Positions 15,401-63,835 of a DNA stretch of 64,000 nucleotides are shown here, piece by piece; the first letter of the stretch is position 1; each line of letters begins with the position of its first letter. This DNA is from Romanomermis culicivorax (lineage: Eukaryota; Nematoda; Enoplea; Mermithida; Mermithidae): positions 930,001 to 994,000 of the forward strand of contig CAWUHX010000063.1 in NCBI GenBank assembly GCA_963922205.1, written 5' to 3'. The notes under the pieces were generated by a model. That model saw only the letters and a program-made list of their open reading frames with translations, was not told the DNA's origin and searched no databases. A program made the translations under genes and the position numbers.

Positions 15401-18400
15401 TTATGATTGAAGCGAAGTTTTTTAAATATTTCAATTCGAATGTTTGGTTCCTTTACTCTATCTTTCAACTTTGAACCAAAGTGAAGATTCAATCAACTGG
15501 GATACACAGTGTAACTTTTTCCGCCCGTGCAAACCTTTTTCAGATTTTTTTGCACCGTGCAAAAATGTTTATCAAATGTGAGAAAAATTTGGGATTTACA
15601 AATAGAAAAAATTCATTTTGGTGCATTTTAGTAGGTCCAAATCTCAAAATTTTCCGGCGCTTGGCGCCGGTTATATCTTTGATAATCATTATTTATTATC
15701 AAGCACAGGCCCGGCTTTTGGCATGCCTACTTTCAATTATCAATAATTTTTAATAGTTATTTTTAATAGTAATTTCATCATCTTAAACGTGTTATTTCAT
15801 GTTTAATTGGCGATCTTCAATGTTATATCTTTATATTTAATGAAAATCCGCATTTTTTCCTTCATGCATTTTTTGAGAAAGATCAACACGTCAACTTTCT
15901 AAACATTTTAAAGCGTTTGTTCATTTCTTAACATAAATTGAATTTAAAAGCTCCATGGAAGTATTTTTGGAAAATTTTCTACGCTTCTGAATTTTTCGGC
16001 CAAATTTATAAAAGGTTACGAACAAGTTATTGGTTTTAAAATTTTTCAAATGGTGACATTTCTAGAAATTACGATTTATGAACAAAAAATTCAAATCTAA
16101 TTTTTGAGATTTTTTTCCAAAAAATTTTTCACATGTGGAAAAAAATTTGACTTCTTCATTTGCGCAAAAAAAGTTCGTGGAAAAAAAGTGATGTATTTAT
16201 TGATAGTACAAAAAAAAATTTTGGCGTGCAAAACTTTTTTGGTAATTTTTTTGCACTGTGCAAAACAGCTCGTGCAAAAAAACACTGGGCATACAGTACT
16301 TCGTCAAATCAATGAATATTAATTATTATTTCGTATAACACATTATGAAAAACTTAGTTCGTTAGCCCGAATCGAATAAACCTACCGAAAATCATGCTGT
16401 AATAGTATTAATATGTATTTCAAAGCTGGGCTTACTGGTTTTCGCTTCAATTTATAGTTCCAAGATTTCAATTTTGATGAAACCCGGTTTATAGGGGTAA
16501 ACAGCAAGTTGAACTCGGTATTCTAGACTGTGACTAAATTAAAATCTTAGGTAATTACCAGATTTTTTTGATACGTTTTTTGCCGCAGGTTCCCGTTCCA
16601 AATTTTGAGGAAATGTTTCCCTTTCGCTCTAATAGTAGGTGTTGTTTTTATTTGATCTACTAATTTGAAACATAGAGAATAAGTACAGGGTGTTGCGAAT
16701 CTGTCTCCCCCTCTAAAAACCGACTTGATAGAAGAACGTTCCCTACACTTTTCGGTAGAGAATTTAATTCTGCTTTCAGCATTCCGATTTTTATCAAATT
16801 GAAGGGCTAATTTTTTATTACAACAAAACTATGATCAACACATAAAATCGTATATTATTCCATTCTATGCTAGAAATTCGTAGTTTCAGTAAGTCGTTTG
16901 TCCACCAGAACCTTTCTGACTTGTCCGAGGCGATCAGGCGTGGAACCATAACGGACGTTCAACAAGTTATTGATCAAATTCTAAATATGGCTACACACTT
17001 TGAAACTTTTTTATCAAAGTGGCATGTAAATAACGCCCGGATACTTATTCCAAATGCATATTTTTCAACCTTGTTCTTCAAAATTTCGTCCAAATTCTCG
17101 GTCGGATCGAAATCTGGCGAGTTCCCATGCCATAAATCATAACCCCAAAATTTGATATTTTTCCTAATCAGCAGATATTGATTTCGTCGCATATGCGACA
17201 AAGTGTTTAATGTTTTCCAATTTTTCTTTAATTGTCCTGAATTAATTATTCCTATCTTCGTAATCGATTAGCCACTCACTTCTCTCTGGTGAACTCAACT
17301 CAAACTTCTTTAGCTTTTTAAGCCGTGCTTTTTCCGAGTCGAAACTCTTTTTTTTAGCAAAATAATTGATAAATCCGGTGGCAATTTCCAAAAGACAATG
17401 GCTAATACAATACTTTACATGACGCGTTACACCGTTAGACGCAGAATTAAATTCTCTACTAAAGAAATACATCTAGCTTACTATAAGTGGGTTTTCGAAG
17501 TGAGCAGATAGATTCGCTGTGCCTTATGTTATACAGCTGCATCTGTTCTCAATTCTCGTTTCTACCGAATCGGATCAAAAAAGTTCAACTCGTTGTCACA
17601 GGTAAAGTTTCAGTTGCCAGTCTCATGAAATAATTTGAATTCCGCAATTACTATCAGATTGAAAATGACCTGACTCACTCTCTCTGCCTTCTATTTTGTT
17701 GATAATACTTACATCGTGGAAATAAGTAACTCTAGCGTGTAAAGACGCTTTTGACATGATTAATTCCGAGGATGCTTGTTGGCGATTCTTGAAACACTCA
17801 TGTAAAATCATTGTCCATCTTTTTCAGTTTACATGATCCAATCGTTCCTTACATCGCCAATGGTCCGCAAAGGCAAGTTGGCGTCAAACGTTTGTGCTCA
17901 AAATTCCCGTACGAAGATATCCGGGAGGTTCACAAACGCCGTTATCTTCTGCAGCCCATAGCTTTGGAAGTTTTCTCGAACGACGGTCGCAATTACTTAC
18001 TGGCGTTCCCGAAACGCGTCCGTAATAAAGTCTATTCAAAATTTTTGGCCGTTGCTCGAAGATTAATCGACACCGCCGATCAGAGCGTCTCGGGACAACG
18101 AACGAGCGTCAATTTAGAAGCCGGAGCCAGCCTGTTCGGCGCTTTGATGGGCGAAATGTCTGTTACGCAACGATGGGCGCGTGGGGAATTAACTAATTTT
18201 CAGTATTTGATGCACTTGAATACGCTGGCCGGACGATCGTACAACGATTTGTCGCAGTATCCGATTTTTCCGTGGATTTTGAGCGATTATGATTCAGAAG
18301 TAACATGAGAGCATAAAATGTCTTAAAGACTCGATTAGGTAACGGAACACAGCTCTTTTCTTTATTTGAAAGTCCGACATCGAATTGACCTACAGTAGTC

Positions 18401-21400
18401 ATTTTATTAACTTTAATTCCTTTTCTTTCGAATAATTCAGATACGTCCAATGAGTTCAGACGGGGAAAATAGATCGAGTAGACCAAATCATTCCCAGTAG
18501 TGAGTACTGTAAAAAGTCCCAGTTCTTGAAAATAAGGATTGCTGATTTTCTGGCCATAATCATGAGGTTATTTTTGCACGGAATTCGTATTCGCCTTACT
18601 TCATAATTTACAGATTACATTAAAGAAAAGAAAATTCAGAACTATTGATCTCGTAATTCTGGTATTACATTAAATCCTGTTTCAATAATGCTCGCAATAG
18701 CTTGCTTTTCCAATTTGTCACTGTGAGAATAATTCTTTTATGAAAAATGTAATTACTGCCGAATCATACATACATGTAATTAGGAGAAGTATTCTCTCCA
18801 GAAATTGTCGGCTGTATGGCTAGCGATTGAGTAATCACTCATCACAGGATTTGCCAATCTTATGGCTAGCCGCCATATGATATTCATAGGGACCTCCTAC
18901 TTTTGGTCGCAAAAATACCGAAATGTCAATTTTTGAACAAAAAATGGCCAAAAATGTTAATTTTCTCTGCGCTTTGCACCATCAATACATTTTTTACGTT
19001 CTTTAAGGCGATAATTTTGATTTTTTGACAGTTTGTTGACCTTTTTGATGAAAAAACTTTTTTTTTCTACTTTTCCTGTTTTTTCTTCTTCTTTCCTTTC
19101 CCTTATTATGTTTTTCTTTTTTTCTTTCAATACAATTTTTCCTTCAGTGACCCTCACCATAATTTTGGGAATCAGTGACCTTCGGCCCCAAAAAAAGTCG
19201 CCTGACTTCCCCTCCAGATCTCAGGGCTACGTTACGTGTATGTGCCGAATATGTTACATATAATCGAACACAGTGTCATAGAGATCCCCATAAACCGCCC
19301 AATGGCCAGGCTATCACATGGCTACACCCAAGATTTGACAATCATATGGCCGGCTATCTTAGAGGCACCGATAACGGGACTCTATCCTTTGGATTGAAAA
19401 AGTTTAGTTTAGACTATCCATTCATAGTTTTTATGTCGAGTGGTTACTTCACTGAGTTTTGAATCCAGACTTTTTTTAGTCTTTTTATGGGTCTGGGCCC
19501 CTTAAAGTTTGGAAATTGCTCCTAAAATTTTAGGTCTAGGGGAGGGGCCATTTTGGGTCCTAAAATTTTAACTTATTTTTTTATATTTTAGTGAATTATG
19601 GTTATTTTCATTCAATTTTAGATTTAAAGTATGTGTTTTACAGGTTCTAAAATTATTAACAACGAAAATTTTTCGGCGCTTCGCGCCGGATCTCTTTCTT
19701 TAACTTTTCAGAGTGGTCTATTCACTGTTTTACAACAAATCAAACTTTCTGGCGAAAAAATTTTTGAAGAAGGGGAAAAATATGAGGGCTCGACAAGGAA
19801 AGAAAATTGTTGCAGTTATGATGTCAAAATCTCAATTTTTCGATTCTTTTGCAACTATTATTTTTAATATGGAGCCGAGTTTGAATTCATAATCATAATG
19901 GAGGTAATTTTCATAAGTTTCAAACTTTATTTGAATTTCTTCAAACTCATGAAAGCATAAACATATTTTTTAAATTTGCAAAATGATATATGTATACATG
20001 TTTGCGAGCCTTATGTTCATTGAATAAGTTACATAATACTTAAATTGATTTTCCAGCATTTTAGAGTGTCAGAATCTAAAAAAAATTTTCATTGCGTGGC
20101 GCCGGAAAGATATACGAAACAACAGAACAATAAGAACTGAAGCTGCATTTTTAAAACCCCATACTTTTGTGCTAGAAAGAAATAAACTCAAGTGCTTTCT
20201 TGGAAATATCGTGTTTTTTGCATAAAAAATTTTTTTTGCACAAAGATTTCTCGGCTGACCTTTGTACATGTCGGAAGACGCCTGTATAGAAAAACACTGG
20301 TTGGAAATAAAATTTTGAATGATAATTTAATTATATATATCTGATTGAATATCCATATAATTTAATTATATATATAAGTTCCACAGTGTGTTACAAGCCC
20401 ATTTTTGGATATTTTATATTTAAAATTTTTGGCTCCCGAAAATTTCAATTTAGCTCCTAAAAATTTAGGCCTAGGAGCCATTTGGCTCCTGGTTTTCAAA
20501 CCAAAAAAGCCTGTTTTAATCAGAACAAGAAGTTGTAGAACGACTATTGAATAAATGCTATAAAACCCCCTTTTTTGCGCGGGCTCTTTTGCACTTCAAA
20601 AAGTGAGCCAGAAAGAAATGTTTGCGTCGAAAAAAGTTTTGTACCTCCGAAATTGAAATAAACAATAAAAGCTTTTTTGAGTTGTTGAAAGCCAAGCATT
20701 AACGAACAAATTATTTGCCTACATTAAGTTCGAACAATACCAAGGAAAACCCAAGTTATGACTGAAGTCAACAAAATCTGTTCCAAATTTCCATACACGT
20801 AGCATAGCTATGGTGATTTGGGGCGTCAGGCGGCTTTTTTTCTCAAAACTCAGGGAAAGGAATAATTGGAGAAAAAACTTTTTTTTAAAAAAGCCCGAAA
20901 ATTGTTTTAAAAATAATATTCAGAATTATCTTCTGAAAACAACAAAACTGTATTTATGGCGCGTAACGCCGATAGGATTGACATTTTTCGTCCATGAGGA
21001 TGGAGTTGCTATATATTTTTTCGTCCAAGAGGATAGAGTTGCTATGGCCAGTCCTAAGTTAACCTATATTATTCTAAAATATCTAGGGGCAACCAAATGA
21101 CTAGCCATATGGCCGACAGTCCCATGGCAGTCCCCCAATTTCATTTATGACTGCTCCATATTTTTCACTCTTGGACGCCTTCAGCAAAAGTTGCAGTCGA
21201 ATCTTGACACCGTACAAAAATCGGTACACTCATTTTTTACGCTGCCAAAATTGTTGCCCTGATCAATATGGCAATGGTACAAATAAGAAACGTTTTTAGG
21301 AATTGGACCTAACGGACCCCGCATCTTTTCGGGATTTATCTAAACCGATGGGAGCTCAAACACCCGAACGTTTGGAACAATTCATGAAACGTTACCGAGA

Positions 21401-24400: not shown

Positions 24401-27400
24401 TGTGCCAATGTACACGCTTGCGTCATGTAAGTGCATATATCCCTATTACAGTGTGTGCATTTTGGAATTGAAGTTGAAGAATTTAATTTGACTTAGATGC
24501 ACAACAAGACTATCAATTTTTTTTTATTGATCGCTGAGAATCCGTATAAATGTCTCTGGCAGGAGTATCTAACTACTACTTCAGTTCAAAGTCGATCCTT
24601 GTCTGTCAGGTTTTCTTAGGCCCAAATTACAGAAGGCGGGTGAAATGAAAGTAAGTTAACGTAAAATCTGGGATGAGGTAACCCATGTTCAACTCACCAT
24701 TCTACCCGCCATTTACCTAAAACTTTACCCATGATTCTACCTGTTTTAACCTCAAGTTCTACTCGTGATTCTATATGACATTACCCTTCTTTTATCAACG
24801 ATTTTACCCGCGTTTATCTACAAAGTTTACTCGACTTTTTCAGCTTTCGTGTTACAGAACGTAGGTAACTTGCGGGCGGTCTATTCCCAAAAGGGCGACT
24901 TCCAATTGAGCGATTCCCAAGTGAGCGATTCTCAAATGAGCGATTCCCTTGTGAGCGACTCCTAAGTGAGCAAATTCCCAACTGAGCGAATTCCCAATTT
25001 AGCGATTCCAAATTGAGCGAATTCCCAAATGAGCGATAGAAAATGAAATAACACCTTTTTATTCTCCTTCCGCATCCTATATTTTTCTTGGTGTATTTTA
25101 TTCATTCGTTTTCTCTGTATGTTGCTTATATTTTTGTTTATGTATGTTTTTACGTTCTCATCTTTTGTCTCTGCTTTCTTTCATTTTGTTTTTTCTTCTC
25201 ATCTACTTTTTTCTTTTTTGCTTATTAAAGAATACATTACAAGATGTCATTTTTAATAAGCATAACCTCCAGTTCGGCATGCTCTCTTTCCTATTTAATT
25301 TTCTCCTTTGTGATTTTTCCATCATTCTTACTTACTTTTCATCTTAGTTTTATGATTATATTTCTTTATCTTGTTCTTTTTCTATTCTCCTGGTCCTTTC
25401 GTGTTCCCGTTCTTCTTCACATCATTTTCATTCTTTCTTTCTATGTGTTGCTTTTTTCTTTCATGTCACTTTTCTTCATATGCCTTCATTTTTGTTGACG
25501 TTTTCTTTATCTTGATCTTTTGTTTCTTCCAGCGTTTTATGTTTTTTATAAATATTTTGACACCTACAACAATGAACCGAACTGTATAAGAATTATATGG
25601 GAGAATACGGTTATTTAAAATGATAACTTGTAGTGTATTGTATCATGAGGAAAAAAGTAGGTATCAAGAAAAAAGAAAATGAAAGAAAGCAGAGCCAAAA
25701 AATGAAAACGTGAAAACATATATAAACAAAAACATAAGCAACACACAGAGAAAACGAAAAAAGGAAATACATACAAAAAAATCGCTCATTTGAGAATCGC
25801 CCTATTGGAAATTCGCTCAATTGAGAATCGCTCGCATTGGAATCGCTCAATTGGGAATTCGCTCACTTGGCAATCCGCTCACTTAGGGATCACTCGCATG
25901 GGAATCGCTCACTTGGAAATCGTTCACTTGGGAATCGTTCTCTTGGGAATCGGTCACACGAGAATATCCTCTTGTGGGTTACCCATCCTACCATTGTTAT
26001 GTATGTTTTGCATGGTGAGTGTCGTTTTTGGCCATATGAACATTGTGTCCCAAAAATACAATGCCAATATCTATCAATAGAAGTTTGCTTACAGTTCAAA
26101 GCAATAGCTTATCTCATGATCATGTGTTAATCCCTCGATGAGTCGTGCCACTGTAACTTCAGTTATCCTGTAATGCAATAGTTCTCACGTCTTACTGTAG
26201 TGCATATATGAATGAAATGCAATTTTCTGACAGCGGATTACCTCAAGCATAATAGGATATTCGCTTGCTTATAATTATTCGCCAAGCTTATGAACTAGCT
26301 GTGTTTTTTGGTAATGTCGAATGCCATGAGACAAGCCATCAGCCGCTCAGTAAACTGTCACTTGTGATTTTTCTAAGAAATTCTTAATTATTCATTTTCA
26401 AACTAGTAATGATTATTCTCATCCAGTCATTGTTATTCTACTTTCTCATTTGAATCTCGGCGCTTCGCGCCCTAAGTACATATTTTATCATTTTTTAGAC
26501 AAAAATTACTACTTTTTAAACCGTTTTTCGGACATTTTTCATGGAAAAAATCGAATTTTTTTCCCTTCAGGGACCCCTCCCCCCAAAATTTTGGGAATTA
26601 CTGACCCCCGGCCCCAAAAATGTGCTCCAACCCCCCTCCAGACCTCGGAGCTCCGTTACATGTATGATTTTAAGATGTCTAAAAATGCATTTTTGTTGAC
26701 AGGTGCTTCATTTACGTCTTTTGTGTTTTTTACATTCCAATACATCTGGAGCAAGTAATTTACAAGTCATAATTATACATCAATCAAAAGAGACTGTTTT
26801 TAAATGTTCATTCATTCAAATATCACTATTTCCGGCGCGGAGCACCGGACAATTTCAGCATTTTGATATTTTAGAATGCTAGAAAATGAATCTTTTCAAC
26901 ATTTATTCTCTAGATGAAAGGTCTAAATTTTAGATGAATTCGAAAATAATTTCCAGCCGACCAAACTCTAAAATTCGAAAATTAGGCAAGCAATCAAAAA
27001 TTTGGAATCTTCAACCAACAAGAACTTCTGCTATTGTCATATGCTGAAAAAATTTTCAGCTTCTTGTTTAAAATTATAGTTACAAAAAGATAGAAGAAAA
27101 CAGATTTTGACCTCTAAAATGCACCAAATTCATCTTTTTCATGTCAAAACCAACCCACAATCAGGTTTTTTTTGAACAGGCTAGGTTGCAATGTGCAACT
27201 TGGGGAAAATTTTTGGTTGCACAGATAAATTTTTGGTTGCTCACTCTAAAATTAATAAATTTGCTTAATTTTATCGGAAAAACCACCGTGAACTAGCTTT
27301 CTTATATTTCATTCGATGCGCGTCGGTTTTAGGCTCTATGACTAGACTAGAGTAATTTGTTTGGGAAATTATGAAGATCACAAAAATACCGAGAAAAATG

Positions 27401-30400
27401 TTAGTTTTCACCAAATTCGTCAAAAAACAATACAGGATCAAATATTTATCCATAATATGTTGATAATTAGAACATATAAGCACCAACTAGAATAAAATTT
27501 TTAACCGAGCTCTAAAATAATATAAAAAATTATGAAGGGATTGAAACCCGGCGCGAAGCGCCGGAAAATTTTCACTTTTTCCTCATTTTAGAACGCATAA
27601 AAATGCATTTCCGGACAGAAAACCCTATAACCGAATCAAAAGGGCACTCAGGCCTCAAGTTGCACTGTGCAACTTGGCAGAAAAAATTTGGTTGCACAGC
27701 CCGAATTTTGGTTGCTGTGTGCAAAAAAACCCTGCCCACAATTTTTCACTTTTCCAAAATCCTCTTCCCTCAAAAAGTTTTATTTGTGGAAAAACAGTGG
27801 ACCGATCAATCCGAAGAATTATACAATGAAATTTGGTGCGAAGCGCCGATAAGTTTTCGGTGTTTCCTGATTTTAGAGCCCGCAAAACACTTCAAATCAA
27901 AAATTGAATGAAATTAACTATAATTGACTGAGGTAGGAACAAAAATGGCTCCTAGACATAAAACTTCACGAGCCATTTTAAATTTTTAGGGGACCAGGCC
28001 CCTAACATGACTAAAAAAGCCTAAATAAAAATGTATATGTTTAGGAAAGTCGGGATCACGAAAAGATTCAGGAGAAATAATCGCGAAAAATCTCGATTTT
28101 CGTCTAATACATAAAAGCAATACAAGAAGATCAAACATTTATCCATAATATGTTGACACTTGAAAGATATAAGCATAAGTTAGAATGATACTTTCTAACC
28201 ATGCGCTAGAAATAATATCAAAAGAATTATAAATCATTTTAGAGCCGGTGCGTAGTGCCATAAAATTTTTAGAATTTCATATTTTAAAACGCATAAGAAT
28301 GCACTTCACCGTAAATGAGGTGTCCTGCCGCAAATTTCTGACATTGCAAAGACCTTGCACACAACTTCATGTTTCATCTTGATGGGGTCCATTGACCCCT
28401 GGACCCTCCTCGTGGCTACGCGCCTGCGGTTAGCTCAGTTGGTTAGGGCGTGCGGACGGTAGCCGCAAGGTCCTGGGTTCAAGTCCCAGACTGAGCCTAA
28501 CTTTTACTACAGCCCCGAGTAACGGGAAAAGGTTGCCTCAACACTGGTGGCTCCTGACTGTCCGTCAAACTCGACGGCGGAGGAATGTTGAGAGTGGCCA
28601 AAGCAGCCACCTCAACTACGTATTGTTGCAAAAAGAGAGCGCCTTTCCCGTTGCTCGGTTAGCTCAGTTGGTTAGGGCGTGCGGTCGGTAGCCGCGAGGT
28701 CCTGGGTTTAAGTCCCAGACCAAGCCTAACTTTTACTGAAGCCCCGAGTAGCGGGAAAAGGTTGCCTCAACACTAGGTAGCGGATCTGGCACCGATCCTC
28801 GGGAAAATGGGGAAACAAAATTTGACTCCTTCCCCCTTTAGGGGAGAAGGCCCGGGGGAAAAACAGTGGTAACTGGAGAAAACCGCGGTAACTGGAGAAA
28901 ACCGCAGTGCAGAATCTTTTTTTGGCTTTTTTGCACTATGCAGAAAGCCCGGTGCAAAAAAACACTGATCGGATAATCCCTAAATTTTCCGACTTATCCT
29001 CATTGCCATCGCTAGCATCAGATTCAGTTTGTCCTGTAACACATCGACGGCATTTAAAGAATCAATCAAAATCGAGCTTTACATAAAAAAATATATACTT
29101 CTTGTCAAAATAATCCTGCTAGTAACAGGGTTAAATCGCAGGTTATTTTCACGTCATTTTCACCAGCTTTTTACCCAACTTTTACCTTGCCCCTGTAATC
29201 TAGATATGGGTAAAACCACACTTATTTTTTCTACCGAAGATGTTTTCCGCATGTTACCCACGATCTCACCTGCGATTTTACCCGAATATTAATGGGCCAA
29301 AACCCTTCTTTCCAGGCAACCTTTTTGATCTCGGTATTAAACAAAGCGGCGTGCAATTGAACGATGCCATTCTACCTAAGTGGGCGAGAAATGATCCACG
29401 AGAATTCATCCGTTTACACCGCGAAGCTTTAGAATCGGACTTCGTTTCTTTGCACTTAAATGAATGGATCGACCTAATTTTTGGCTACAAACAACAAGGC
29501 CAATCAGCCATCGAATCGTGCAATTTATTCCATCATTTATTCTACGAAGGAAACGTGGACTTCGAATCGATAGAGGATCCGTTGACAAGAAATGCAACGA
29601 TCGGTTTTATAAATAATTTCGGCCAAATTCCAACCCAGTTATTCAAAAAGCCGCATCCCCAAAAAAAGATAAGAGGTGATACTTTCAGGAATCATTTATG
29701 TCATTGACTAATATCAAATGAAAGTATAATTAAGCGTACAGTAAATCAAACATATTTTCAAACCATTTTATGATATGTGTAGCATTTCTTGAATTTGATG
29801 CAGTTGACGTTAATTGCTCTAAATATGACGTTAGAATATTCCCGAAAATCTTTCCGCGTCTTGAATAAAATCCTGGATTTTGAGTTATAAAAACTCATTT
29901 TTTGTAGTTCTGGATTCGTCATTACCAACGCAGGGCGTTACAACCGAAAAATTATTCTTCCATTGCTTGGAACATTTGAAACCACCGATGATGACCGCTA
30001 AAGAACTAAGAGGACCTGTCGGTTCTATTACTCAAAACGACAAGGGCAATCTATGTTGCGTCGAGCAAAATAAAGCTCTAATGCCGCCAAATAATTCCAA
30101 ATATTTTTCGTGGGGGTACGCTGATAATTCCGTTCGCATGGGGAGTTTAGAAAACGAAAAGGTTAGTGTACACTACACATACTGGAAATTTTATAAAAGA
30201 TAAATAATGTTTTATGACGAAAATTTTACATATAAACGAGAAGGTACGAAGAGCGGTCAGAAATAACTGAAGTACAGCTTTTTACAAAATTATTAATTTA
30301 ATATGTGCCAAGGTTTTTTTGTGCACTGCGTTGTGCACGTTGCACAAATAGTGTCAGAATGTTTGTGCACTGTGAGAAAAAAACTGAACATGAAATCATG

Positions 30401-33400: not shown

Positions 33401-36400
33401 TAAAGATAATCTTTCGTTTTCATAGCTTAACGAGTGGGATCCCCAGCACGTTATTTTGACCGGATCTAATGACGGTGTCGTTCGAGTGAGTGAATCGGGT
33501 TTAGCTTTTTTGCATGTTTCCAGTAGGGAAGTATGTAAAAGTCTAAAAATCTGGCATTTTGTCAGTCTGGTGTGATAAAAATATAGGAAATAATTAAGTT
33601 TGAAAATTGGGTGCAGTCAGATAGTGAACTCCATGGTTAGTTTAAAACTCGATTCCTGACAGGATATTCAACAAATTTCAATTGCAATTCTGTTGGATGG
33701 AACCCGAACATACGCTTCAAAATGTCTGTATTCTGCTTGTGACAGGTTTCGTTTCTATCTTGTGGAAAAACTTATATTTGGTTACAGATGTGGTCGTTAG
33801 ATTTTGTACAAGTTCCGGCTGATGCTGAAGCGCTTGATGTCAACGGCACTAGTAGTTCTCGGAAAGATTCTCCACTCTTCAAAAGAGCCCCAACGCAAAT
33901 GTCGAATGTGTCAACAGCCGCTGGTGACCTAGTTCCCATGGTCGATCCTTTGAAGTCGTTGGACGACGAGTTTTACGAAGGATGTCCAGTATGTTAGCTC
34001 GAACGTTTTCTGTATACTAACTATTTGTTTTATTTTTTTCTGCGAAGCACATTTTACATATACTATCAGCTCAAATTCACATTCAAATATGAAATTTCTC
34101 AGAATGACACAGTATTTTTTCTAAATATCGATTTTGTTTAGCTTGCCTAAAATTATTTCGTCAGATAATGTCACAGAACACAATGGGATTTTGACCAGCG
34201 CCTCTTTACTCACCTAATATCCATAAAATAAGTACCTTCAAATGCTTATTCATGTGTAGGATTCAAAACTACTCCCTACTGACAAAGAAATCGACGTTGA
34301 CGACTTAAGACGACGATTAGCCGACGAAAATTTGATCGGTAGCAGCGACGATGAACGTCCAAGATCGACGACGGACCATGATCGACCAACGCCGAAATTT
34401 TGTGTCGGTAGCGTGTCCAATTCTTCCGCCGGACCGGACAGCGGTTTAGGTGGGTTAAGCACCAATTTTTTAAGAAATTAGTTCTGTTTGAAGACTACTT
34501 GGATCCTTCTAGCCATTTTTTGATCTTGCTCTTTTTATTAAAATAATCGCATTTTAAACTTCTTTGACTCACTGAACGTTCAAGTCATTTTTTGGAGTAT
34601 AATTTAGAAATAATGCGTTTATGCTCAAAATTAATTTTTTCCCATGTTTTCCATTAATCGTAATTTTGGGCAAATTTTAGGAACCCCGCATGCTCGGATT
34701 GAGTCCGAAATCAACGAAACGGTGCCAAAAGACTCATTTTACACCGGCATTAGCCCGCTGACGCCCACTTTTGAATCTCGATTCACCGATCTATCGAATC
34801 TGATCAATAATGAATCTTCATCCTCGTGTACAATTTCGGCGAGAAGTGAACAATTAGCCAAACGAGGTATGTTTTTTGGTCGAAAGAATGCACCAAAGCA
34901 TGTAAGTTCGAGTTTTTCATTTCAAACTCATAATAATAATTTTGCTAAAAACTCAAAAGCTGTCTGATTTGGTCAAAGTTAGGGAGATTGTGAACTTTTC
35001 ATTATGAAAAGAAAGACGATGAAACAAACGAAGCAAATTAGGAAAATGAACGAGCGACCGCAAAAACTACGGCATCGCGTGATATAAGGAAATATGAAAA
35101 CGATCTTTTCTGAACTCTCTTAAAATTAAAATTAGGGACGAGTAAATGCCCCACACTCAAAATTTTTATGATTTTTACTCGAAAATTGTACGATCGGAAA
35201 GAATTAATGTGGAAGAGCTAGAACAACAGATAACGCGATCAATTTTTGGCTGCAGAAGACGGTTTCCTGCTGATATGGGCACTGTTGTCTACGCCCGTAA
35301 TGCTATAATGTTCTATTTCATTTTATGTACGATGTTTTAAGTAATCGAGGTTTACGCCACTACATACATCCTCGAAAAATAAATTGAAAATTGTAACCAC
35401 GAGCTTACAGTATATCAGTCAAGGGCATTTTTGCAGTAACCCTTTACCACCGGCCATTTTCCCATAATTTATGTTAGATGTCAGTGATATGAGAAGTTAA
35501 TGCCTTGCCCTATTGAAATTAAACTGAAAGTTAAGTTTTTTGATGCTAGCAAAGTGTCTACAGCATGGCAATTGAAATTTGCCTCAAGTCATACTTTGTT
35601 CCGCTATACTTCTGTCAAAAATTGTGAATGACGCGCAAGATTTTTTTTTGGTTTTTTCTCGATAGGCCATTTGGCTCCTAAGGTCAAAATTTTACGGGCC
35701 AATAGGAATTTCAACAAGCCAAAACTAAAAAGTTTGTAAATATGTAAACGTGATAGTAAAAGGAATGTTTTTTTCAACTAGTCAAAAACACTCTTCAGAA
35801 TGTGAGTAGAAATCCACATAACAGATCAATCATTTTGAATACATTTTTAATCACACACAGAATGATAAGGCTCACAAATTAGATCAGTCATTATTCAAAT
35901 CAATCATCAGGTTTTTTTCGCACAAGCCAGGTTGACCTGTAACTTGGGGAAAAATTTGGTTGCACAGATTCATTTTTAGTTGCTCACTCTAAAATTGATA
36001 AATTCGCTTAATTTCATCAGAAAAATGATTAAAAGTTACTTCCCATCCACTTCATTCACTTCGCGACAGTTCCTGTCTTTTAAAATTGAATTTCTTGAGT
36101 TTTAGGTTAGAAATCAAAAGTCAGGCTAAAGTACCTTGTTCGGTGCTTAGCGCCGAAAAATTTTTATCTCAGGGCCTATAAAAAGCCGGAAAACGCATTT
36201 TTTCAGCACATTCTACTGCAACTGCCGATGACCGATCTTTTCACCATTTGATTGGCGGAAGAGATCAAACATTTTACCTCCATTTTGGATCTTATATATC
36301 CAGAGCCAGTAATTTAGCAATCACAATTATTTATCAAAAGCGATTGTTTTCACATGATTTCACTTCAGACTTGAATACCTTCGGCGCTTACCACTGAAAG

Positions 36401-39400
36401 AAAATTTTAGCTTATGATATTCCATAGCATTGTAAACTTTTAATATCTTTTTCCTGCATGGTCTATTTTTTTAGTGGATTCAATGTGTTTTCAGTGGGGC
36501 GAACTAAAATTCCAAAATTAGGCAAGCAACAATGACTCTCGATGGCTTCTTCAGATAGCAAGAATCTCTGCCATTTTCCCACGCTCATGATGTTTTAATC
36601 ATTTTCCAAACGCAAAAAGTTATGTTCATCAAAGTCAAAAATTCCAAAACGCCGCAGAACAATTTTGTTAAATCATCTATATCTTTGTCAAACACGTAGA
36701 AAAAAACAATACAAGGTCAAACATTCATCCATAACATGCTGGTTTCCGAATGATGACATTTTCTAACTGCACAACAGAAATGATACCAAGAATCATAAAT
36801 GAATTGAAATCCGGCGCCAAGCGCCGGAAAATTTTGGGTGTTTTTCATTTCAAAATGCATAAAAATGCATCTCCGCACAGGAAACCTTATAGCCTAATCA
36901 AAAAGGGTGGTTAGGCTCTCATTTTTACTAGCCAGTTTGGCTTGTGCCCCTAAATTTTTAGGAGCCATGGCTCCAAATTGACCTAAAAACCCCTGATGAT
37001 GTGTTAAATTAATGTTTTTAGATAAGTCTCAACGAGATGGATCGATTGACGTCTGATTTTTCGCCTTCACGATGTGTTATAAAGCTACATAATCTGATCG
37101 AGTTAGCTTTTGTTTCGGCTCCTCCTCACTAATTTATTTCATGCCTTCATGGTTTTTAACGACAGAAACTGCACAAAATATCAAGTTTTGATACTTATTT
37201 TTTGAGTTTTATGAAAGAAGGTCGATCTTCTCATAAAGGTAATTGCTTTTTAAACAACAAAAAGGATAATTATTTCGATTATAGTTTTCACGATGACCGG
37301 ATTATTTTGACGCTTCTAATGTTAGTGGAAAATTAATTTTACATTACGTTGCTTTATAGATTCATCGGAGTCATTCGTTCTGTCGAATAAAGACGGTTTA
37401 ACGACAGTCAAAACGCCCAATAAACTTCGCAAAGGGTTTAAATGGCAGCGTCAATTAGTATTTCGTTATAAACTGACGATGTACACGTCTTTTGAACGGA
37501 AAGATAACAATGCTCCGGCAGCCGTAACGGCCTTGGCCGTCTCGAAGTACGAGACCTCTATGACTTTGTTCTATGAGGACAGTTTTTAAAGAACGTCAAA
37601 TATACAGTGTCCTCCAAAAAACGAACTGCCCTAAAGGCATATAGTCCCTCAAACTGTAGAGCGAGAGTGTTTGGACTTTTTTCGTATCTACTCTAGTTTA
37701 CATCTGTAAGGATTTTGGTAACGGGTTTGTAGTACATAGGTTACAGGTTACTGTAGCAGAACTGATGTGATCGAATGTTTACATAGTGCGGGGCTGTTTG
37801 AAACGAGAAATTTACCTACGGTTCCTATTCTGTGGCAAAATGACAGGACGATTTCAGAATGTGCAGTATTAGCGGGACTAGAATGGAGCAGAGTCCATAC
37901 TCGAAACTTTAAAATCGTAGAGCTGAAAACGATAGGGATTTTGACTTTGGTTTGTTCAATGTAGTTGACACGATCGGATATTCTATAAACGATGAGAATG
38001 TTGGATATCGGTTGGGATGGATGGTTCTTCATTTCCCACAAACCTAAAAGACGATTAGACGGATTTGTGGTTTCTAATTTATTGAGGACGGGAATATGCA
38101 GAATAGTTTCAATTTGCAGAAATATAAAAAGACGATAAAATACGCAAAGTAGTAATGACCTTAAACGAATAGAAAATATTCGAAAGAACGAAATTATAGG
38201 CGGACAGATGGGATAGGGAAAGGGGAGGGCAATGGTCGGTCGGAGAAACGGGAAGGGAACAAAAACCGACTGAGAAATGAACAAGACACCCATTTATATA
38301 TCCAAAAAGATACATAACAACTATCATAGAAACTATACTCCATCCATTTCGAAATGATCGATGCGGCGGACGGAGTTTAGGCAAACGCAGCTTTACTATA
38401 GATCAAAATAGGTAATTCCGATAATCCTGGAATGATTGAAAAGAGAGTGATCGTCAAGGACTCTCTATCACGAAGGACAAATTTATTGAATAGAATCAAC
38501 GAGCCTTCCAAAATTTTGAATAAAAGTTTGGCTGCGACCTATAGTCCGTTTTTTAAATGCTTGCAACGCTAAAATGCTGAAAGTAAGTACGCATGCAGAA
38601 TTTCGTGATCATTGTTGACTATGTTATTAATCGATTAACCGGCTGCAGTAAACTGTGACTAAACTCTTGGCTAAACTCGATAAATCTTTGAACAATAATT
38701 TCCGTCTGGTGCGAGAAATGCCAAAAAAAAATTTCGCACGGCTAAAAAAATATTCTGCGCAGAAAAAGCTAAGCAAATGACCAGCGCTGCGGTGCGACGC
38801 GCCCGGATTTTGAGATTTCAACTTTGCAAGGCACACCAATTGTATCACGATCTTAACTCCCAATTTTTTCATTATATGAGAACCATGTCCAAAAATTTTT
38901 TTCTCATTTCCAAGTTTTTTCCTAACAAATAGTTTTTTATTCCGTCAAATGTCGACTGTCGCTTTATCCCCCAATGCAGTATATTGTGCGCACGCGCGGT
39001 AATTGAAGAAGCAATGTATACTTTATTTCATCTTTTTTCGGTTACAAGCATTTAAAAGGACAGACTATAGCAGCATCGATCATTGCAAAATGAATAGGTA
39101 TAGTCACGTGATCCAATGCAAGCTAGTGACTTTTAGCGGAGGCGGCTAGAGAGAACTGTGAAAGAACGAAGTTAGACGATGATGGTTAAGGAAATATTTA
39201 TTGATGAAAAAGTAGAATGGAGAAGAAAGAAAGTTTCAAGAAATTTTAGGCATGATTTGGCAGTTCTTATGTGAATTTGAAGAGAAAAGGATGAAAAGAA
39301 ATGATAAGAAGGCAGAGGAAATGTATGATAAAAAGAATAGAAATAACAAGAAAAGAATGAAAAAATGGTCGAAGAACTGAGACTTCAAATGAGATTTTTA

Positions 39401-42400
39401 AGTAGAACCAGCGAAACAACACTAATGGCCAGTTACATCAATAACAAGATTCTCACATGTCCCCGATATTTCATATCTTTTGCTACGAAAACCACTGCTT
39501 TTTGGTGTCGTCTTATGCATCATTTCTTATTGATTAAATAATAAGCAGTGTTTGACTACTGCGAAGTAAGCTTACTGTAAAAATACTTTAACGTCAATGA
39601 AAACTGAAACGAATAAACAAAATATTGTAAGCCTGATTTCTCAGTTACAATGACTATAATTGATAATCGTGAGGAAAAGTACTGCTCTTCCAGGAAAATT
39701 TGCAGTTTTCTAAAAATTTCATTACTGCTTTAACTGTAGCTTCAGGGAAAAAAATTACATTAAACTAATTAGACATTTTTAAAAATTCCGAGCCAATAGT
39801 GCCTTCTTATGGTCTGTTTTTCTTGAAATGCCTCTAAATAATGAAAGTGGAAAGCAAGTAGTGTTTCATATTTTCACGATTTTCTGATAAACAATATCAT
39901 ATAAGAATGGAAATTGGTGAGCATACTGACCTAACCTTTAACAATTTTTCGAGTGAAAAATTTTACAATGAGAGCTCTATGTAAACGATTTTTATGACGA
40001 GACTAATTTGTGTCACTTTTCTATTTGGAAGCATTTTATAAAAAACAGACTATAGTCTACTGTATTATATCGATCGTACACGTCTCTCTTGCTTTTCCTG
40101 AAATCGTCATTTGTCCCCCAAAAAAATACTTTTTGGTAAGACAAACCTAAGCCGGGCGTCCATTTTAATGGGCCTTGAACACACAAAATTTTTCGATTTC
40201 TTAGAGACCACAAATCCGTATTCGTGGGTGATTCGCGAGGTCGCGTATGGACGTGGACGATCGGCGAAGGTAACACGGGTGGCCGGGCCGATCACTGGTT
40301 CCAAGATCCGTCGCGCAATTCCTGCGCCCAGTGTCACCAAAAATTTTCTCTTACGGAAAGGCGCCATCATTGTCGAAATTGCGGACAAATCTTTTGTTCA
40401 AGGTAAAATTGGTTGTAAAATTGTTTTTCGTGATTGAAAATTGATGTTACAGTAACTATTCAATATAAATTTTTCTCTTGCGCAATTGAAACATCGTCTT
40501 TATTATAATTTTTGGCGAACATTCAAAACATGAGCGACCCTGATGTATGCGTCAAAAACCAAGGTATTGGAATTTCTTGTTCGTATTAGAAGATCAGGAA
40601 AACGAATTCGGCCAATGTGTTAGTTCGAAAGTGTGTATACTTATTGCATTAACATCTAATCAGTCTTGTTTTCTTTGAATAAATGCTTGCAAATTAAAAA
40701 ATCACAAATGACTTCAAAATTGTCCACTTGGATTTTCAGTAGAAGTCGGCCTCCGTATTATGAGCTGTGGTTTCGCAGAAAATTAAAAAATATTGTACAT
40801 ACATATACAATTTTATCAAGCTATGATTACAGGGTTTCAATTTTTTTCTCTGTAAATGTTAATTCGGTACCGCGAAAACTCTGGCATGGCTTGAACAGCA
40901 CTTATTTCTTATAAAATCCTCATCTAACGGTAGAGCTTCACACGACAAAAATTTCGTACCCGGGTACCCGAATTATCCGGGTACATGTTAAAATGAGTTG
41001 TAATGTTTACATGTATAATATTCGACAGATAAAACCAAAAAATCCCAAATTTGATGATTAAAATCCAAAAAACTCAAAGCCCTAAAAACCCATCTTTTCC
41101 AACCCTGACCCTCTTACTCTTGATCATTATCATCAAACTCAGCCGAGAATTCACCTTGGGATTGAAGTCTACGTCTTAGCTTTCAACTAAGCAGACTTAT
41201 TATAAGTATGGACAGTGTTTTTTTCTACACAATGCAGACTTTCTAGGCTTTGTGCAAATTTTTTTTTGTGATTTCTGCACTGGTGCAGAATTGTTTGAGT
41301 CCTGTGTTTGATCACATATATTCTATAATGTGTCAGCCATTGATTCTGAACCTTTAAAATCAATCATCTTTCTTATTTTAAGATTTTAAAATGCCTAGTA
41401 AAAAACTATAAATTCGTTCAAATTTAACATTTAATTTGCATTTTCACTATATTCACTATTATTCTATTGTAGCAGGCGGTGTTTTTTCCCCCAAATCGTT
41501 TTTTTGGAAAAAATTTCAGAAAAGGAAACAAAATTTGGGCTCTTCCCCCATGTGGGGACAAAATTTTTGGTTTCTGATACGGAAAAATGCATTTTGGTGC
41601 ATTTTAGAAGGTCATAATCTCAAAATTTTCCGGCGCTTCGCGCCAGTTATAACTTCCATAAACATTATCATGTATTAGATCAGGCGCGGCTTTTAGCATG
41701 TCTACCTTCACTTATCACTTTATCTATATAACAGTTTTCATCAAACCTATATTATCTTATGTTTGATTCAATTGGTAATCTTCGATATTTTATCTTGAAA
41801 TTTAATGAAGATTCGCATTTTTCCTTGACACATTTTTTGACAAAGATTAATACGTCAAGTCTCTAAACTTCTTGAAGCGACTATTCCTTTCTTAATGTGA
41901 AATCAATTCAAAAGCTTCATAGAAGTAGTTTTCGGAATTTTCTGCTCTTCTTACTCATTTCTTTTCAGTCAAGTTCACGAGAGTTTACGAATAAATTACT
42001 GGCTTTGAAATTTTTCAAATAATAAAATTCTAGAAATTACAAATTTTGAACACAAAATCCGAATCTAATTCTTGAAATAAATGTTCGGAAAATTGATTTT
42101 CCAACATCGCAGAATGTCAATACCCAAAAAATTTTTCTGGCGCTCGATGCTGGAAAGACCAATATCTTTTTTGGGCTCTCACTTGACATCATAAAGGACT
42201 TAAGCATCGATTTCTCATGTAATTCAAAGTCAGTATGCTCCTAGATAGTTTGCTGGAAAATTTGTTCCACATTCTTGTATGTAGATTAGACCTGGATGAA
42301 ATTCGAAAATTTAACTTTTTCCCTCAATTTTGATAAATTAACGGCTCTAAAAACACCCGAAGGTTTGAAAAAGTTCAAAAATACACAAATAAAGAATCTA

Positions 42401-49095: not shown

Positions 49096-50630
49096 CAGGG
49101 TTCATACAAAGTTGGGGAAAAAAATTCCCTGTGATTTCCAGGTTTTCCAGGTTGACAAATGAAATTTTTCCAGGTTTTTATAATGATGAAATATACTATC
49201 CCGAAGGAAAATACTGAATAATACAAACATGTATGAGCTAAAGTATCATCATAAATAGAGTACTAAATCAAAAAATTTATTTCAAATTATTGCGCAATCT
49301 AGTGCCGAAAAATTTTGATTCTGAGGCCTCTGAAACGTCGGAAAATTAATTTTTTAGCACATTCTTGTGCAGCTACCGATGATCAATCGTGATCTTTTCA
49401 CCATTAGATTGGCGAAAGCGTTAAAACATTTTTCCAATATTTTCGTATATCAAGAGCCAGTAGTTTACCAATCATAATTATTTATGATTGTTTTCAGACG
49501 TATGAACCATAAAAAAGTGTGATAGATATTTTACTTCGTACTCGGATATCGGTAATTAATGCCGGTGCTGAGCATCGGAAAAAATTTGAATTTTGATATT
49601 CTATAGCGTTGTAAAATGAATATTTTTAATATCTATTTCCTGCCTGAAAAGTCTAATTTTTCAGTGAATTCAACATGTTTTCAGTAAGCAAACTAAAATT
49701 CAAAAATTAGGCAAGCAGCAATGAATTGAATGACTTTTCCAGACAGAAGAACCTCTGCTATTGTCCCACGCTTAATCATTTTCCAAAAGCAAAAAGTTAT
49801 CTTCACGAAAGTCGAAAATTCTAAAGAACCACAGAACGATTTTGTGCAAATAATCTAGAAAAATCTAGCTTTTAGTCAAATTTGTGAAAAAACAATACAA
49901 GGTCAAACATTCATCCATAACATGCTGATGTTTAAAAGCTATAAGCCAGCGTAAGCTAGGCCGACATTTTCCAGCCGCACAACAGAAATGATAACAAGAA
50001 TCATAAGTGATTTGAAATCCGGCGCGAAGCGCCGGAAAATTTTCGATATGTTTTCTTAAAAACGCATAAGAATGCACCTCCGGACAGGAAACTCACCCAA
50101 TCAAAAGGGTCGTTAGGCTCTAATTTTTATAAGCCATGTTGGCTGGTGCCCCTAAATTTTTAGGAGTCAATCAGAATTTTTAGAAGCCATGGCTCCTAAT
50201 TGACCTAAAAAAACCCTGACCAGACTCGATTTTTTTTCGCTCGCAAATATGAATGCTCTATATAGCCGAAAACATTTTGTTGATTAATCTCCAATTTTCT
50301 GGCATAAATGAGGAGTTTGAATGTTTTCTCGAATATTACCCTTACAATCCAATTGAAACGTTGACTGACATAATAATTTAAAGGCTAAATTACAAGTTGA
50401 AGTTGAAAAACTAAAAAAAAGATCTCAAATACTCGATGATTTTAAGCAATTTCACTTTCAATGCGCATAGTCGAATAAGAAAACTCGCCGCAGCGCGGCG
50501 AAAAAATTCGACGATTTTCCTCTACTTTTCAACACAAAATATTTATTTGTCCACAAAATTCCCTGTGCTTTCCAAGTTTTCCAGATCTGAAAAAAATTCC
50601 CTGTGTTTTCCAGGCTGTGTATGAACCCTG
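49096..50630. mobile_element. CAGGGTTCATACA-ended hAT element, 1,535 bp, composite
   Basis: Ends are CAGGGTTCATACA and TGTATGAACCCTG, a 13-bp perfect inverted repeat. Subterminal TTCCCTGTG and TTTCCAGG repeats occur at both sides. The middle (about 49260-50218) is collinear with the 35908 CAGGT element, including CCGGCGCGAAGCGCCGG at 50019, so one element probably sits inside another. The flanks do not match as a duplication. Confidence 0.7.
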
Positions 50631-56739: not shown

Positions 56740-56741
56740 TG

Positions 56742-59414: not shown

Positions 59415-59466
59415 TATTTAGCGTAGAATAGCTAAACATGCAGTTTTATTAGACCTAAAAATTATG

Positions 59467-59557
59467 TTGAGGCAACCTATTCCCGTTGCTCGGGTCTTCA
59501 GTAAAAGCTAAGTTCGGTCCGGGATTTGAACCCAGGACCTTGCGGCTACCGTCCGCT
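59467..59557 (-). repeat. tRNA-derived SINE, copy 3, 5' truncated
   Basis: On the minus strand: GCGGACGGTAGCCGCAAGG (anticodon arm), B box GGTTCAAATCC, then CTTTTACTGAAGACCCGAG and AGGTTGCCTCAAC. The A box is missing, so it is a truncated copy of the 28421 family. Confidence 0.8.
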
Positions 59558-61281: not shown

Positions 61282-61420
61282 AACTTTTTCTGCCGCATTT
61301 TGCTATGTTTATTGTGAACATGATCTACAGAAAGTTTACTTTTTCTGGTTTTTTTGCTTCAAGGGATCAATGAATGACCCAACCGGATCCGGATCTTATA
61401 TGATAGCATATATACATAGT

Positions 61421-61715
61421 CATGGCCGTACCCAGGGGGCGGGTGGGGCGGCGAAGCAGCAGGCACACAGTTATCGCGTAAAATCAACATTTTCTGGGGC
61501 TATTCAGTAAGAAAAAATTTAGTCCGCTCCCATGAAAAAATCCCGCGCACGGCCCTATCAGGGCCGTGCACAAGGGGGGCGGGGGGCGGCCACCCCCCCC
61601 CCATTGAGGCAGCATGTACACAGTGTATCGCGTGAAATCGACATTTTTTGGGGCAATTCAATAAAAAAATGTAGTCCGCCCCCCCCCCCATGAAAAAATT
61701 ATGCGCACGGCCCTG
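61421..61715. repeat. Two tandem copies of a GGGCCGTGCGCAC repeat
   Basis: Copy 1, about 61422-61556, begins GGCCGTACCCAGGGGGCGGG and ends GCGCACGGCCCT. Copy 2, 61559-61715, begins CAGGGCCGTGCACAAGG and ends TGCGCACGGCCCTG. Both share ATCGCGTRAAATC, TTTTGGGGC, TAGTCCGC and CCATGAAAAAA. Copy 2 has 10-bp inverted ends. Confidence 0.75.
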
Positions 61716-61922
61716 ATATATATACACACATACTGATCGCTGAAAATTCTTACACAATATTTGCTGATAGATAAATATACATCTGTTACAGTTGTAAAAG
61801 ATGATCTGATGATCTGTATAAAATTCTTCATTTAGTTAAATTTCAGGACTTAGTACGCTACGTAAAATGATACTTTAAAAATTTTTTGAAAATCTGCCCC
61901 CTTGAACAAATCCTGGGTACGG

Positions 61923-62349
61923 CATACATGTAAGGGGGGTGGAGTGCTATGGGAACCCCCCCCCAGAAATCGTCGACCATATGGCTAGCCATTGGGCGAC
62001 CGCCCCTCCAGGATTTTCCAATCCAATGGCTAGCTATATGGTAGCCCTAGGGACCCTCATACTTTTGGTCGGAAAAATACTGAAAAATGTCAATTTTTTG
62101 ATGAAAAATATCAATTTTTGAACAAAAAATGATAAGAAACGTGAATTTTCTAGGCGCTTCGGGCCATGAACACATTTTTTCAGTCTTTATAGAAAAAAAT
62201 CGCTATTTTTTTGAACTATTTTTCGTGAAAAAATCGAATTTCCTTCCTTTGAGAGATTCCTCTCCCCAAAATTTTGGAAATTACTGACCCCCGGCCCCAA
62301 AAAAGTCGCCCAACCTCCCCCCAGACTTTGGTACCCCGTTACATATATG
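61923..62349. mobile_element. CATACATG-type MITE, 427 bp
   Basis: Begins CATACATGTAAGGGGGG and ends CCCCGTTACATATATG; flanks GGGTACGG and GGGTATGG match at 7 of 8. Reverse orientation relative to 11438: GGCTAGCCA palindromes, AAAAATGTCAATTTTTTG, GGCGCTTCGGGCC, then GGCCCCAAAAAAGTCGCC. Confidence 0.85.
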
Positions 62350-62419
62350 GGGTATGGTACTGTATATAGAGTACATGCCGATGAATAATTATGTATAATT
62401 ATTATGTTTAACTATTCTA

Positions 62420-63835
62420 AAATTAAGCTCCACGAATTTATATTTCTTCGATGTCAAATTTACGCTCAGAAATTTAGACAGTAGAAGAATCAGTTCATTT
62501 GTTGAAGCTTTACAGGTGAACATTGATCTCAGATTTGGAAATGTCGAAACCAGGCTTTTTTTTTAGTCATTTTAGGGGCCTGGGCCCCTAAGATTTTGGA
62601 AATGGCTCCTAAAATTTTGACATATTCATTTATATTATAGTGAATTGTAGCTGTTTTCATTCAATTTTAGATTTGAAGTGTTTTACAGGCTCTAAAATCA
62701 TAGAACATCGAAAATTTTCCGGCGCTTCGCGCCGGATCTTATTATATAATTTTTTAAATTAGTCTATTGACTGTTTCTCTACAAATCAAACTTTCTGGAA
62801 AAAAAATTCTCGACGAAGGGAAAAAACATGGAGGTTCGACATGGAAAAGATGAATTTTGGTGCATTTGGTGCAAAAGAATTCTGGTGATCAAAATCTCAA
62901 TTTTTCCTTTTTTGTTACTATTATTTTTAATATGGAGCCGAGTTTGAATCCATGATTATAATTGAGATGATTTTCATTAATTTCAAGTTTAATATGAGCT
63001 TGTCAAACTTATGAAAGTATGAACATATTTTTAAGTTTGTAAAATGATATAATACCTGTTTTCGAACCTTGTATTTTTATCGAATAAGTTATCCCTGAAT
63101 TGATTTTCCAGCATTTAGAGTGTCAAAATCTAAAAAAAATCGTTGCATAGCGCCCGAAAGATATAGGAAACAACAGAACAATGAGAACAGAAGCTGCAAT
63201 TTCAAAACCCTATACTTTTGAGTCGAAAGGAAATGAACTCAAGTGCAATCTTGCATGAAGATTTGTGCAAAATTAAACGAAATATCGCGTTTTTTGCATA
63301 AAAAATTTTCTTTGTACAAAGATTTCTCGGCCGATGTTTGTACGTGTGGAAAGATGCCTGTAACTGAAAACGCTGGGTGGAAATCAAATTTTGAACAGTG
63401 ATTTTTTAAAACTCGTATCAACTGATTGAATATCTACATAATTTAATTATATAGTACATTCTACAGTGTGTTACAAGCACGTTTTTCAATATTCTTCAAT
63501 TAAAAATTTTTGGCTCCCAAAATTTCAATTTGGCCCCTAAAAATTTAGGCCTAGGAGCCATTTGGCTCCTGGTTTTCAAACCAAAAAAAGCCTGGTCGAA
63601 ACGATAGAGTAATTAAAAAATTAATACAATACCATATAATCAGAGAATATATTTTTAATTTTAATAGAGAATTTATGATCGCTACTTTTATTGATCTCAG
63701 GTACAAAGACAAATTTTTCGAAAAACCTGGAACAATGTCGGATATAGTTGAAACATTGAAAACCTTAGTTGATAACCTCAAAGATCAAAGCCAGATAATA
63801 GTTTCAACGCCAGCTAAAAAAGCAGCGAACCAGAG
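62420..63835 (+). pseudogene. hAT transposase relic split by a MITE
   Basis: The first piece, ending at 62550, reads DVKFTLRNLDSRRISSF, then EALQVNIDLRFGNVET. The MITE at 62551-63594 plus one 8-bp duplication interrupts it. After it the frame resumes ACGATAGA, then a GTAATT donor and TTTTAATAG acceptor (intron about 63609-63652), then EEFMIATFIDLRYKDKFFEK. The order L---RF followed by ATFLDPR-KDKFF is that of ZBED/hobo-type hAT transposases, just before the C-terminal dimerisation region. The frame stops at about 63841; the rest to the window edge is not recognised. Confidence 0.6.
62551..63594. mobile_element. CAGGC-type hAT element, 1,044 bp, copy B, perfect 8-bp duplication
   Basis: Begins CAGGCTTTTTTTTTAGTC and ends ACCAAAAAAAGCCTG; both flanks are GTCGAAAC. 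Perfect hairpin CCGGCGCTTCGCGCCGG at 62719-62735. Collinear with 19466-20513 throughout. It sits in the exon of a hAT transposase relic. Non-autonomous. Confidence 0.92.

Follow-up and report, generated by a model that had tools for sequence, protein, structure and literature searches.

Among described mobile elements, the closest to those considered here are non-autonomous hAT elements of the miniature inverted-repeat transposable element (MITE) type, which have 8-bp target-site duplications (TSDs), CAnnG-like ends, subterminal repeats, a high copy number and no transposase found inside. We analysed such elements, and a hairpin module that they carry, in a 64-kb stretch of the Romanomermis culicivorax genome (contig CAWUHX010000063.1; G000:C63:930001-994000; hereafter the window) and genome-wide. 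The elements share all of these traits and differ in two: a conserved 17-nt palindrome with AAAATTTT lies about 165 bp from one end in 13 end types, and 11 of 20 bounded copies measure 1,026-1,093 bp. Internal 11-bp inverted repeats at a similar distance from the end serve as transpositional enhancers in the P element, which belongs to a different superfamily. A conserved internal domain with different ends is also known from the highly conserved domains of short interspersed elements, of which the V domain is carried by MER6, a DNA-transposon MITE, according to PMC6887750; here the shared part is a short GC palindrome within DNA elements. The likeness to Hermes and Tol2 is that hAT ends need sequence well past the terminal inverted repeat (TIR): Tol2 requires its terminal 200 bp on the left and 150 bp on the right, and the BED domains of Hermes bind quasi-palindromic subterminal repeats (PMC10368747). 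In contrast, the palindrome described here recurs across many end types, at a position internal to the family-specific palindromes. The elements are of a known kind, hAT-like and non-autonomous; what is unusual is the conserved internal palindrome combined with interchangeable ends.

The hairpin module and its host elements

The 17-mer CCGGCGC-N3-GCGCCGG was searched with up to three mismatches in the window and exactly throughout the genome (359 Mb). The window gave 17 matches against 0.07 expected, with none of 100 shuffles reaching 17, and the genome holds 8,092 exact sites and none of a reversed control pattern. The hairpin is a real and abundant feature of this genome. All of the hairpins listed in a first-pass annotation of the window were recovered: those at 15654, 27548, 36811, 50019 and 62719 have perfect 7-bp arms and that at 41630 has one mismatch, while the hairpin given at 19674 begins at 19673 (its first base is T) and the partial form given at 26458 begins at 26457. 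Further copies with one to three mismatches lie at 2387, 4699, 6271, 26832, 31122, 31347, 36140, 38789 and 49562. The reported direct junction with AAAATTTT holds in 7/7 main copies and is missing from the partial form at 26457. The reported host ends CAGTG (15507-16287 and 41213-42475), CAGGC (62551-63594) and CAGGT, here CAGGT/CAGGG (27162-27734), belong to elements that each have an 8-bp target duplication (with one mismatch at 15507). The CATAC class also exists, but as a family apart, located around 26457, in which the stem is shortened.

The hairpin closes a module of about 60 bp, which reads GCRTTYTARAA, about 16 nt, AAAATTTT and the palindrome. When copies are aligned on the hairpin the upstream stretch is common to them, and directly downstream there is nothing common to all. 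A profile search with the module returned more copies, and, judged by eye, an element often holds two or three in the same orientation; we call the module nearest the left end M1 and the next M2.

Paired ends were sought around 40 module anchors, with CA...TG ends and an 8-bp duplication required. This search gave 26 pairs, of which 20 bounded copies were kept after four spurious-looking pairs (L023, L028X, R_L016 and R_L016b) and two re-finds (L013S and R_L027) had been dropped. The duplications are perfect in 15 copies and have one mismatch in five; L027b is doubtful (a C-rich stretch with its right end in common with L027c), and L027c, which is C-rich as well, makes a weaker case than the others. 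Two more elements, at window 15507-16287 and L014:3913-4773, come from an earlier end search and fall under the TIR limit. A perfect duplication with a TIR of at least 11/16 was found at 17/40 anchors (15 distinct elements) and at 0/142 mismatched left/right controls. Allowing one duplication mismatch raised these figures to 24/40 and 10/142; elements with one mismatch are therefore the weaker ones, because the controls also score at that level.

In 17/20 bounded copies, across many end types, the distance from the left end to the start of M1 is 148-181 bp; the exceptions are offsets of 418 (window 41213-42475, which has additional sequence on its left side), 208 and 120. Exact hairpins served to find the anchors in loci L009-L028, which biases counts of intact hairpins upward, and we see no reason why it should bias the offset. 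M1 lies in a zone of a size matching the required ends of Tol2. Membership of the hAT superfamily is indicated by the 8-bp duplications together with short CAnnG-like TIRs (CAGTG, CAGGG, CACTG, CACCG, CATAG and others, with CAGGC/CAGAC in the N family). The host elements are probably non-coding. Helitrons make no target duplication and have a hairpin just before a CTRR 3' end; the 8-bp duplications rule out a Helitron-type 3' hairpin here, as does the location of the hairpin inside the element, at about 165 bp from the left end and with nothing directly after it that all copies share.

Stem conservation and the exchange of ends

The consensuses of 12 classes of module (with inner modules kept apart from M1, and one class from a single copy) have a mean pairwise identity of 0.957 in the stem, a figure inflated by the choice of L009-L028 through exact hairpins, as are those from the end search and the A-core, and of 0.919 in AAAATTTT, inflated in turn by the assignment of copy strands by likeness to AAAATTTT. 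The 47-nt flanks of the same classes reach 0.635 upstream (0.586 when shuffled) and 0.615 downstream (0.591 when shuffled). Within an alignment of six elements that share a common interior, the A-core, the 57-bp window over M1 has an identity of 0.937 compared with 0.806 overall, ranking third of 643 overlapping windows, and the stem has 0.952 compared with 0.73-0.74 at other G/C positions. In nine copies from the window, which was not itself selected for hairpins although the copies were recognized through them, mismatches to the family consensus amount to 6/126 in the stem, 97/409 upstream and 124/410 downstream. The first-pass annotation had named flanks alignable throughout, with no extra conservation of the stem, as the sign of simple common descent; this is not what was found. 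Its idea of a functional module gains from the conserved stem and AAAATTTT, the near-fixed distance from the left end and the peak in the A-core, while recognition by a transposase or as RNA is hypothetical.

By eye, 13 left-end types starting with CA can be told apart, mostly CAnnG, with CAGGC/CAGAC in the N family. Nearly all have a T run, and in most a type-specific palindrome is present, such as TTTGTACATGTACAAA, CCGCACAGTGCGG, AGGAGCCATGGCTCCT, AGGGGCCTGGGCCCCT or GTTGCACAGTGCAAC. Perfect duplications accompany ten of these types (one of them C-rich), two have duplications with one mismatch only, and one, that of the hairpins at 36811 and 50019, has none; the end search found no bounded element with a target duplication around either hairpin. 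Two more groups, the GGATCC-rich S type and the CATAC family, are additional to the 13, neither with verified duplications. The CATAC-ended repeats (window 26455-26680, 11438-11653 and 62149-62349) have a GGCGC-TTC-GCGCC core, which in other copies mostly follows AATTTTC; the family may carry the same signal independently.

Recombination between families, the other possibility raised in the first-pass annotation, is supported by one core that occurs with six end types and by two cases in which the previous right end survives within its replacement. Copies of the A-core are 72-85% identical, with pairwise matches of up to about 940 bp. The C-core is found with CACCGTTTTTTTTCCTC ends in L011, L015 and L027 (and probably L023) and with CAKGGCCGTGC ends in L009, L021 and L028; in L009 and L021 the former CACCG right end is visible within the new right end and the former left end is gone. 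Similarly, in the A-core element of L013 a GTGCAAAA-type end encloses a retained right end of the E8 type. For these two cases, we infer that the core passed to a new end type by nesting followed by mobilization through the outer ends. The hairpin shared by A-core copies is simple inheritance, because the copies are 72-85% alike over hundreds of bases, and the occurrence of one hairpin with different ends is in part plain inheritance of a core. At L010:4796-4877, an X2 core nearly abuts a CAGGGTTCATACA end, with M1 unusually close to the end, apparently a further change of end.

A candidate cis-acting site and its alternatives

We favour, with a probability somewhat below one half (about 0.45), the reading that the hairpin is an internal cis-acting site of a large, old and radiated group of hAT-like non-autonomous elements. 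These elements have CAnnG or CAnnC ends, usually with a T run and usually with a family-specific palindrome near the ends, the latter being the predicted binding site of the BED-type domain of a transposase. M1 sits about 165 bp from the left end, often with a second or third module deeper in the same orientation. Ends and spacers diverge rapidly and cores swap end types, in the two cases compared apparently by nesting with loss of the old left end, while the M1 palindrome and AAAATTTT stay. The anatomy, the position of the hairpin, its extra conservation, the covariation of pair 1 and the pairing of cores with different ends are observed directly, whereas the role is proposed. The palindrome, read either as a two-fold symmetric sequence or as a hairpin, may raise the chance that an element is copied, through transpososome assembly or a shared host factor. 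Since the elements seem to be non-coding, selection could act only through their own copying, and a conserved palindrome would then most simply be a cis-acting site.

Compensatory change in the stem, which had been proposed as a check, is evident in the genome-wide counts (made for pairs 1 and 5 only) and absent within families and among the copies in the window. At pair 1 there are 8,092 C-G, 2,537 T-A and 2,001 one-sided cases (odds ratio 20.5); covariation at pair 5 is weak (8,092, 37 T-A where 11.8 are expected, and 619 one-sided; odds ratio 3.1). The T-A pair also stands in the consensus of the classes XM2 (two copies) and R (four copies); in one R-family copy bearing T-A at pair 1, the hairpin offset is 166 and the TSD has one mismatch. 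Covariation of this kind fits a hairpin and a dimer-bound palindrome alike and thus cannot tell them apart. Within families, hairpins were sampled by 18 flanking bases only (the first 100 places each of 1,191+1,202, 139+150 and 362+369). Stem substitutions in these copies, counted at stem sites alone, number 117/1400 in A1, 121/1316 in X and 59/1400 in C2. Over the 294 17-mers of the three families the stem decays without strand bias (C>T 113, G>A 104), and dead copies seem, from these changes, to decay neutrally.

Several observations weigh against a cis-acting site. Paired changes show no excess within the three families (3, 3 and 0 against shuffle means of 4.4, 3.0 and 0.65) or among the 16 copies in the window (13 distinct rows), and the counts behind the genome-wide odds ratios are inflated by related copies, which are not independent events. 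M2 is ordinary in the A-core (0.807, rank 390), no better conserved than its surroundings, and a broken M2 is common to three A copies. The end search found no bounded element at 14/40 anchors, and stem conservation is overstated by the choice of L009-L028. No transposase has been linked to movement of the hairpin elements, and the one intact hAT element examined, L035, holds no hairpin within three mismatches.

L035 has an 864-codon frame with DUF4371 and Dimer_Tnp_hAT domains, a perfect TSD (CTATTGGC) and CAGAGCCGTGCC/CAGGGCCGTGCC ends, of which CAGGGCCGTGCC resembles the CAKGGCCGTGC end type of the C-core. Inside it are one string with four mismatches at 214 and a weak match to the module profile at 3873-3940 (E 0.0022) that leaves out the hairpin part. 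A tblastn search with this one transposase lineage gave no match with E up to 1 in the window and L009-L028 (264 kb). The hAT dimerization domain was scored at 150 places of 1837 candidates genome-wide; no autonomous partner of the T-run ends was found when this list was compared by eye with the hairpin and BED lists and L035 was examined. The S-type (GGATCC-ended) hairpin elements contain a short BED zinc-finger frame of about 70 residues (zf-BED, E 7.7e-8). By our own count it is interrupted by a stop in 14/150 scored places (607 candidates) and is open in most. The frame lies opposite the module strand and reads toward the hairpin, which is 719-786 bp away in 3/6 places on contig 1; of the others there, two have no exact hairpin near among the matches listed and one lies beyond the listed stretch. 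A comparison by eye of BED frames with the 150 scored hAT-domain places picked out one on C3 (opposite strand, within about 2.3 kb) and one on C431 (at a distance of about 6 kb).

Much of the pattern would also follow from common descent alone, with one ancestral MITE that carried the hairpin and an apparent conservation produced by hairpin-based finding and by the handover of intact cores. The A-core, alike over hundreds of bases under six end types, the selection of L009-L028 by exact hairpins and a resemblance, seen by eye, between A1 and C1 downstream of the hairpin all accord with such a history. We consider it unlikely, however, given the position of M1 at a conservation peak within the alignable A-core, stems that are 96% identical between classes while flanks are near background, mismatch in the copies of a window not picked by hairpin of 5% in the stem compared with 24-30% in the flanks, and the stem substitutions counted, at stem sites only, in the flank-sampled copies. 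An RNA or expression element appears less probable again. On this account, the module minus strand is transcribed in coding relatives and the hairpin (a GAA/GNA loop, then AAAAUUUU) is a 3'-end RNA signal that travels as a passenger in non-autonomous copies. The strand and direction of the S-type BED frame in the 3/6 contig 1 cases would suit it, as would the folding of the N-family module, whose minus strand outdoes 200/200 shuffles (z of -3.3, compared with -1.9 for the plus strand), an effect that stems largely from the hairpin. Decay of the stem without strand bias speaks against it, and no known RNA family covers the hairpin at gathering score: the sole such Rfam match in the window is a tRNA, and with E up to 5 there is none over the hairpin of 62551-63594.

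We give a similarly low weight to a structural role of the DNA, in which the minus strand would extrude a mini-hairpin of the d(GCGAAGC) type that is recognized or that promotes replication or recombination between families. On the minus strand, GC pairs close a GAA loop, and loops of the GNA kind held by two or more G-C pairs are reported to be exceptionally stable, with a melting temperature of 78 C for GCGAAGC (PMC4686876). In C2 the middle loop base varies in 43/100 copies compared with 2 and 13 for its neighbours, as the N of GNA predicts, whereas in A1 and X the third base is the most variable (14/100 and 21/94). Moreover, a dimer-binding palindrome predicts identical stem covariation, and DNA folding parameters give equal energy for both strands. 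The most far-reaching version, a DNA-structure code across the transposon radiation, would have a folded GNA mini-hairpin, set a constant distance in from the left end, read by one common factor, with end palindromes varying and cores changing transposase by changing ends; we hold it to be the least probable of these proposals.

Two layers can be separated in this radiation of DNA transposons: end sequences that change fast and presumably select the transposase, and an internal palindrome, nearly frozen, that persists when the ends change. A palindrome needed for mobility would be a hAT cis-element independent of any single transposase and would account for the persistence of non-autonomous elements whose first partner has been lost. 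With thousands of natural variants, the idea can be tested.

A general habit of GC hairpins beside AAAATTTT is ruled out: in the loci, 75/138 GC-hairpin records hold CGGCGC and many of the others are G/C runs, and a variant with pair 4 turned round has only six genome matches in an AATTTT context, a pattern that misses the window copy at 50485 because its T run is longer. A methylated-CpG hot spot was set aside as a confounder, the CpG observed/expected ratio in the window being 1.04. The hairpin has no match in the viral contig collection and three single matches in the bacterial and archaeal collection, the latter judged to be chance. A literature search, with subscription papers mostly outside its reach, found the hairpin core sequences in no publication save for an unrelated sub-string match, and no such element was recognized by title or abstract start.

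Features of the window and neighbouring repeats

Table 1. Hairpin modules and host elements in the window, with two BED frames from elsewhere in the genome.
Feature	Position	Strand	Remarks
Module put in S family	2387..2403	+	One stem mismatch; poor flank fit to family
X-type module, decayed	4699..4715	+	Three mismatches
hAT-like element, A-core	15507..16287	+	Ends CAGTG...CACTG with GTGCAAAA repeats; TSD GGGATACA/GGCATACA, one mismatch; from first end search and A-core homology, below the stricter TIR limit of the 40-anchor search
M1 hairpin CCGGCGC-TTG-GCGCCGG	15654..15670	+	AAAATTTT directly before
hAT-like element, N family, 1048 bp	19466..20513	+	Ends CAGAC/CAGGC; TSD TTTGAATC/TTTTAATC, one mismatch; hairpin offset 208
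M1 hairpin TCGGCGC-TTC-GCGCCGG	19673..19689	+
Partial hairpin, CATAC-ended repeat family	26457..26473	+	GGCGC-TTC-GCGCC core
Second-type module, decayed	26832..26848	-
hAT-like element, X1 family, shortened, 573 bp	27162..27734	-	TSD CCCACAAT perfect; left-end palindrome GTTGCACAGTGCAAC
M1 hairpin, perfect	27548..27564	-	Start 171 bp from left end, module orientation
Second hairpin module, decayed	36140..36156	-	Orientation as 36811; taken as part of same X2 element
M1 hairpin of X2 element	36811..36827	-	End palindrome AGGAGCCATGGCTCCT; no target duplication found
hAT-like element, A-core	41213..42475	+	Outer ends CAGTG...CACTG; TSD AGTATGGA perfect; lies within larger repeat
M1 hairpin CCGGCGC-TTC-GCGCCAG	41630..41646	+	Offset 418 from extra left sequence
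M2 hairpin, decayed, CTGGCGC-TCG-ATGCTGG	42137..42153	+
Second module of X2 element near 50019, decayed	49562..49578	-	Pair 5 is T-A
M1 hairpin, perfect, X2 family	50019..50035	-
hAT-like element, N family, 1044 bp	62551..63594	+	Ends CAGGC...GCCTG; TSD GTCGAAAC perfect; end palindrome AGGGGCCTGGGCCCCT
M1 hairpin, perfect	62719..62735	+	Start 169 bp from left end
Second-module remnant TCGTTGC-ATA-GCGCCCG	63140..63156	+	Weak module match at 63088-63136, E 0.0055
S-type BED frame	L013:5543-5731	-
S-type BED frame	G000:C1:652893-653081	+

The larger young repeat around the A-core element at 41213-42475 extends over about 41030-42990 of the window and is also present in L029-L031. Over the 971 bp searched, identity in its best copies is 95-97% (41 matches, 40 scored of 6,115 candidates); it ends in ...GGCAACACTG and carries a reading frame. 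The large open frames in the window resemble, by eye, exons of a BEACH-domain gene. A long inverted repeat at 24883-25956 consists of a diverged GAGCGATTCCCAA-type unit and shows no relation to the hairpin. Two tRNA-Thr(GGT) genes, at 28425-28497 and 28653-28726, lie in a 119-bp unit that is present twice, and the unit occurs again in L026:80-425 with about 92-95% identity.

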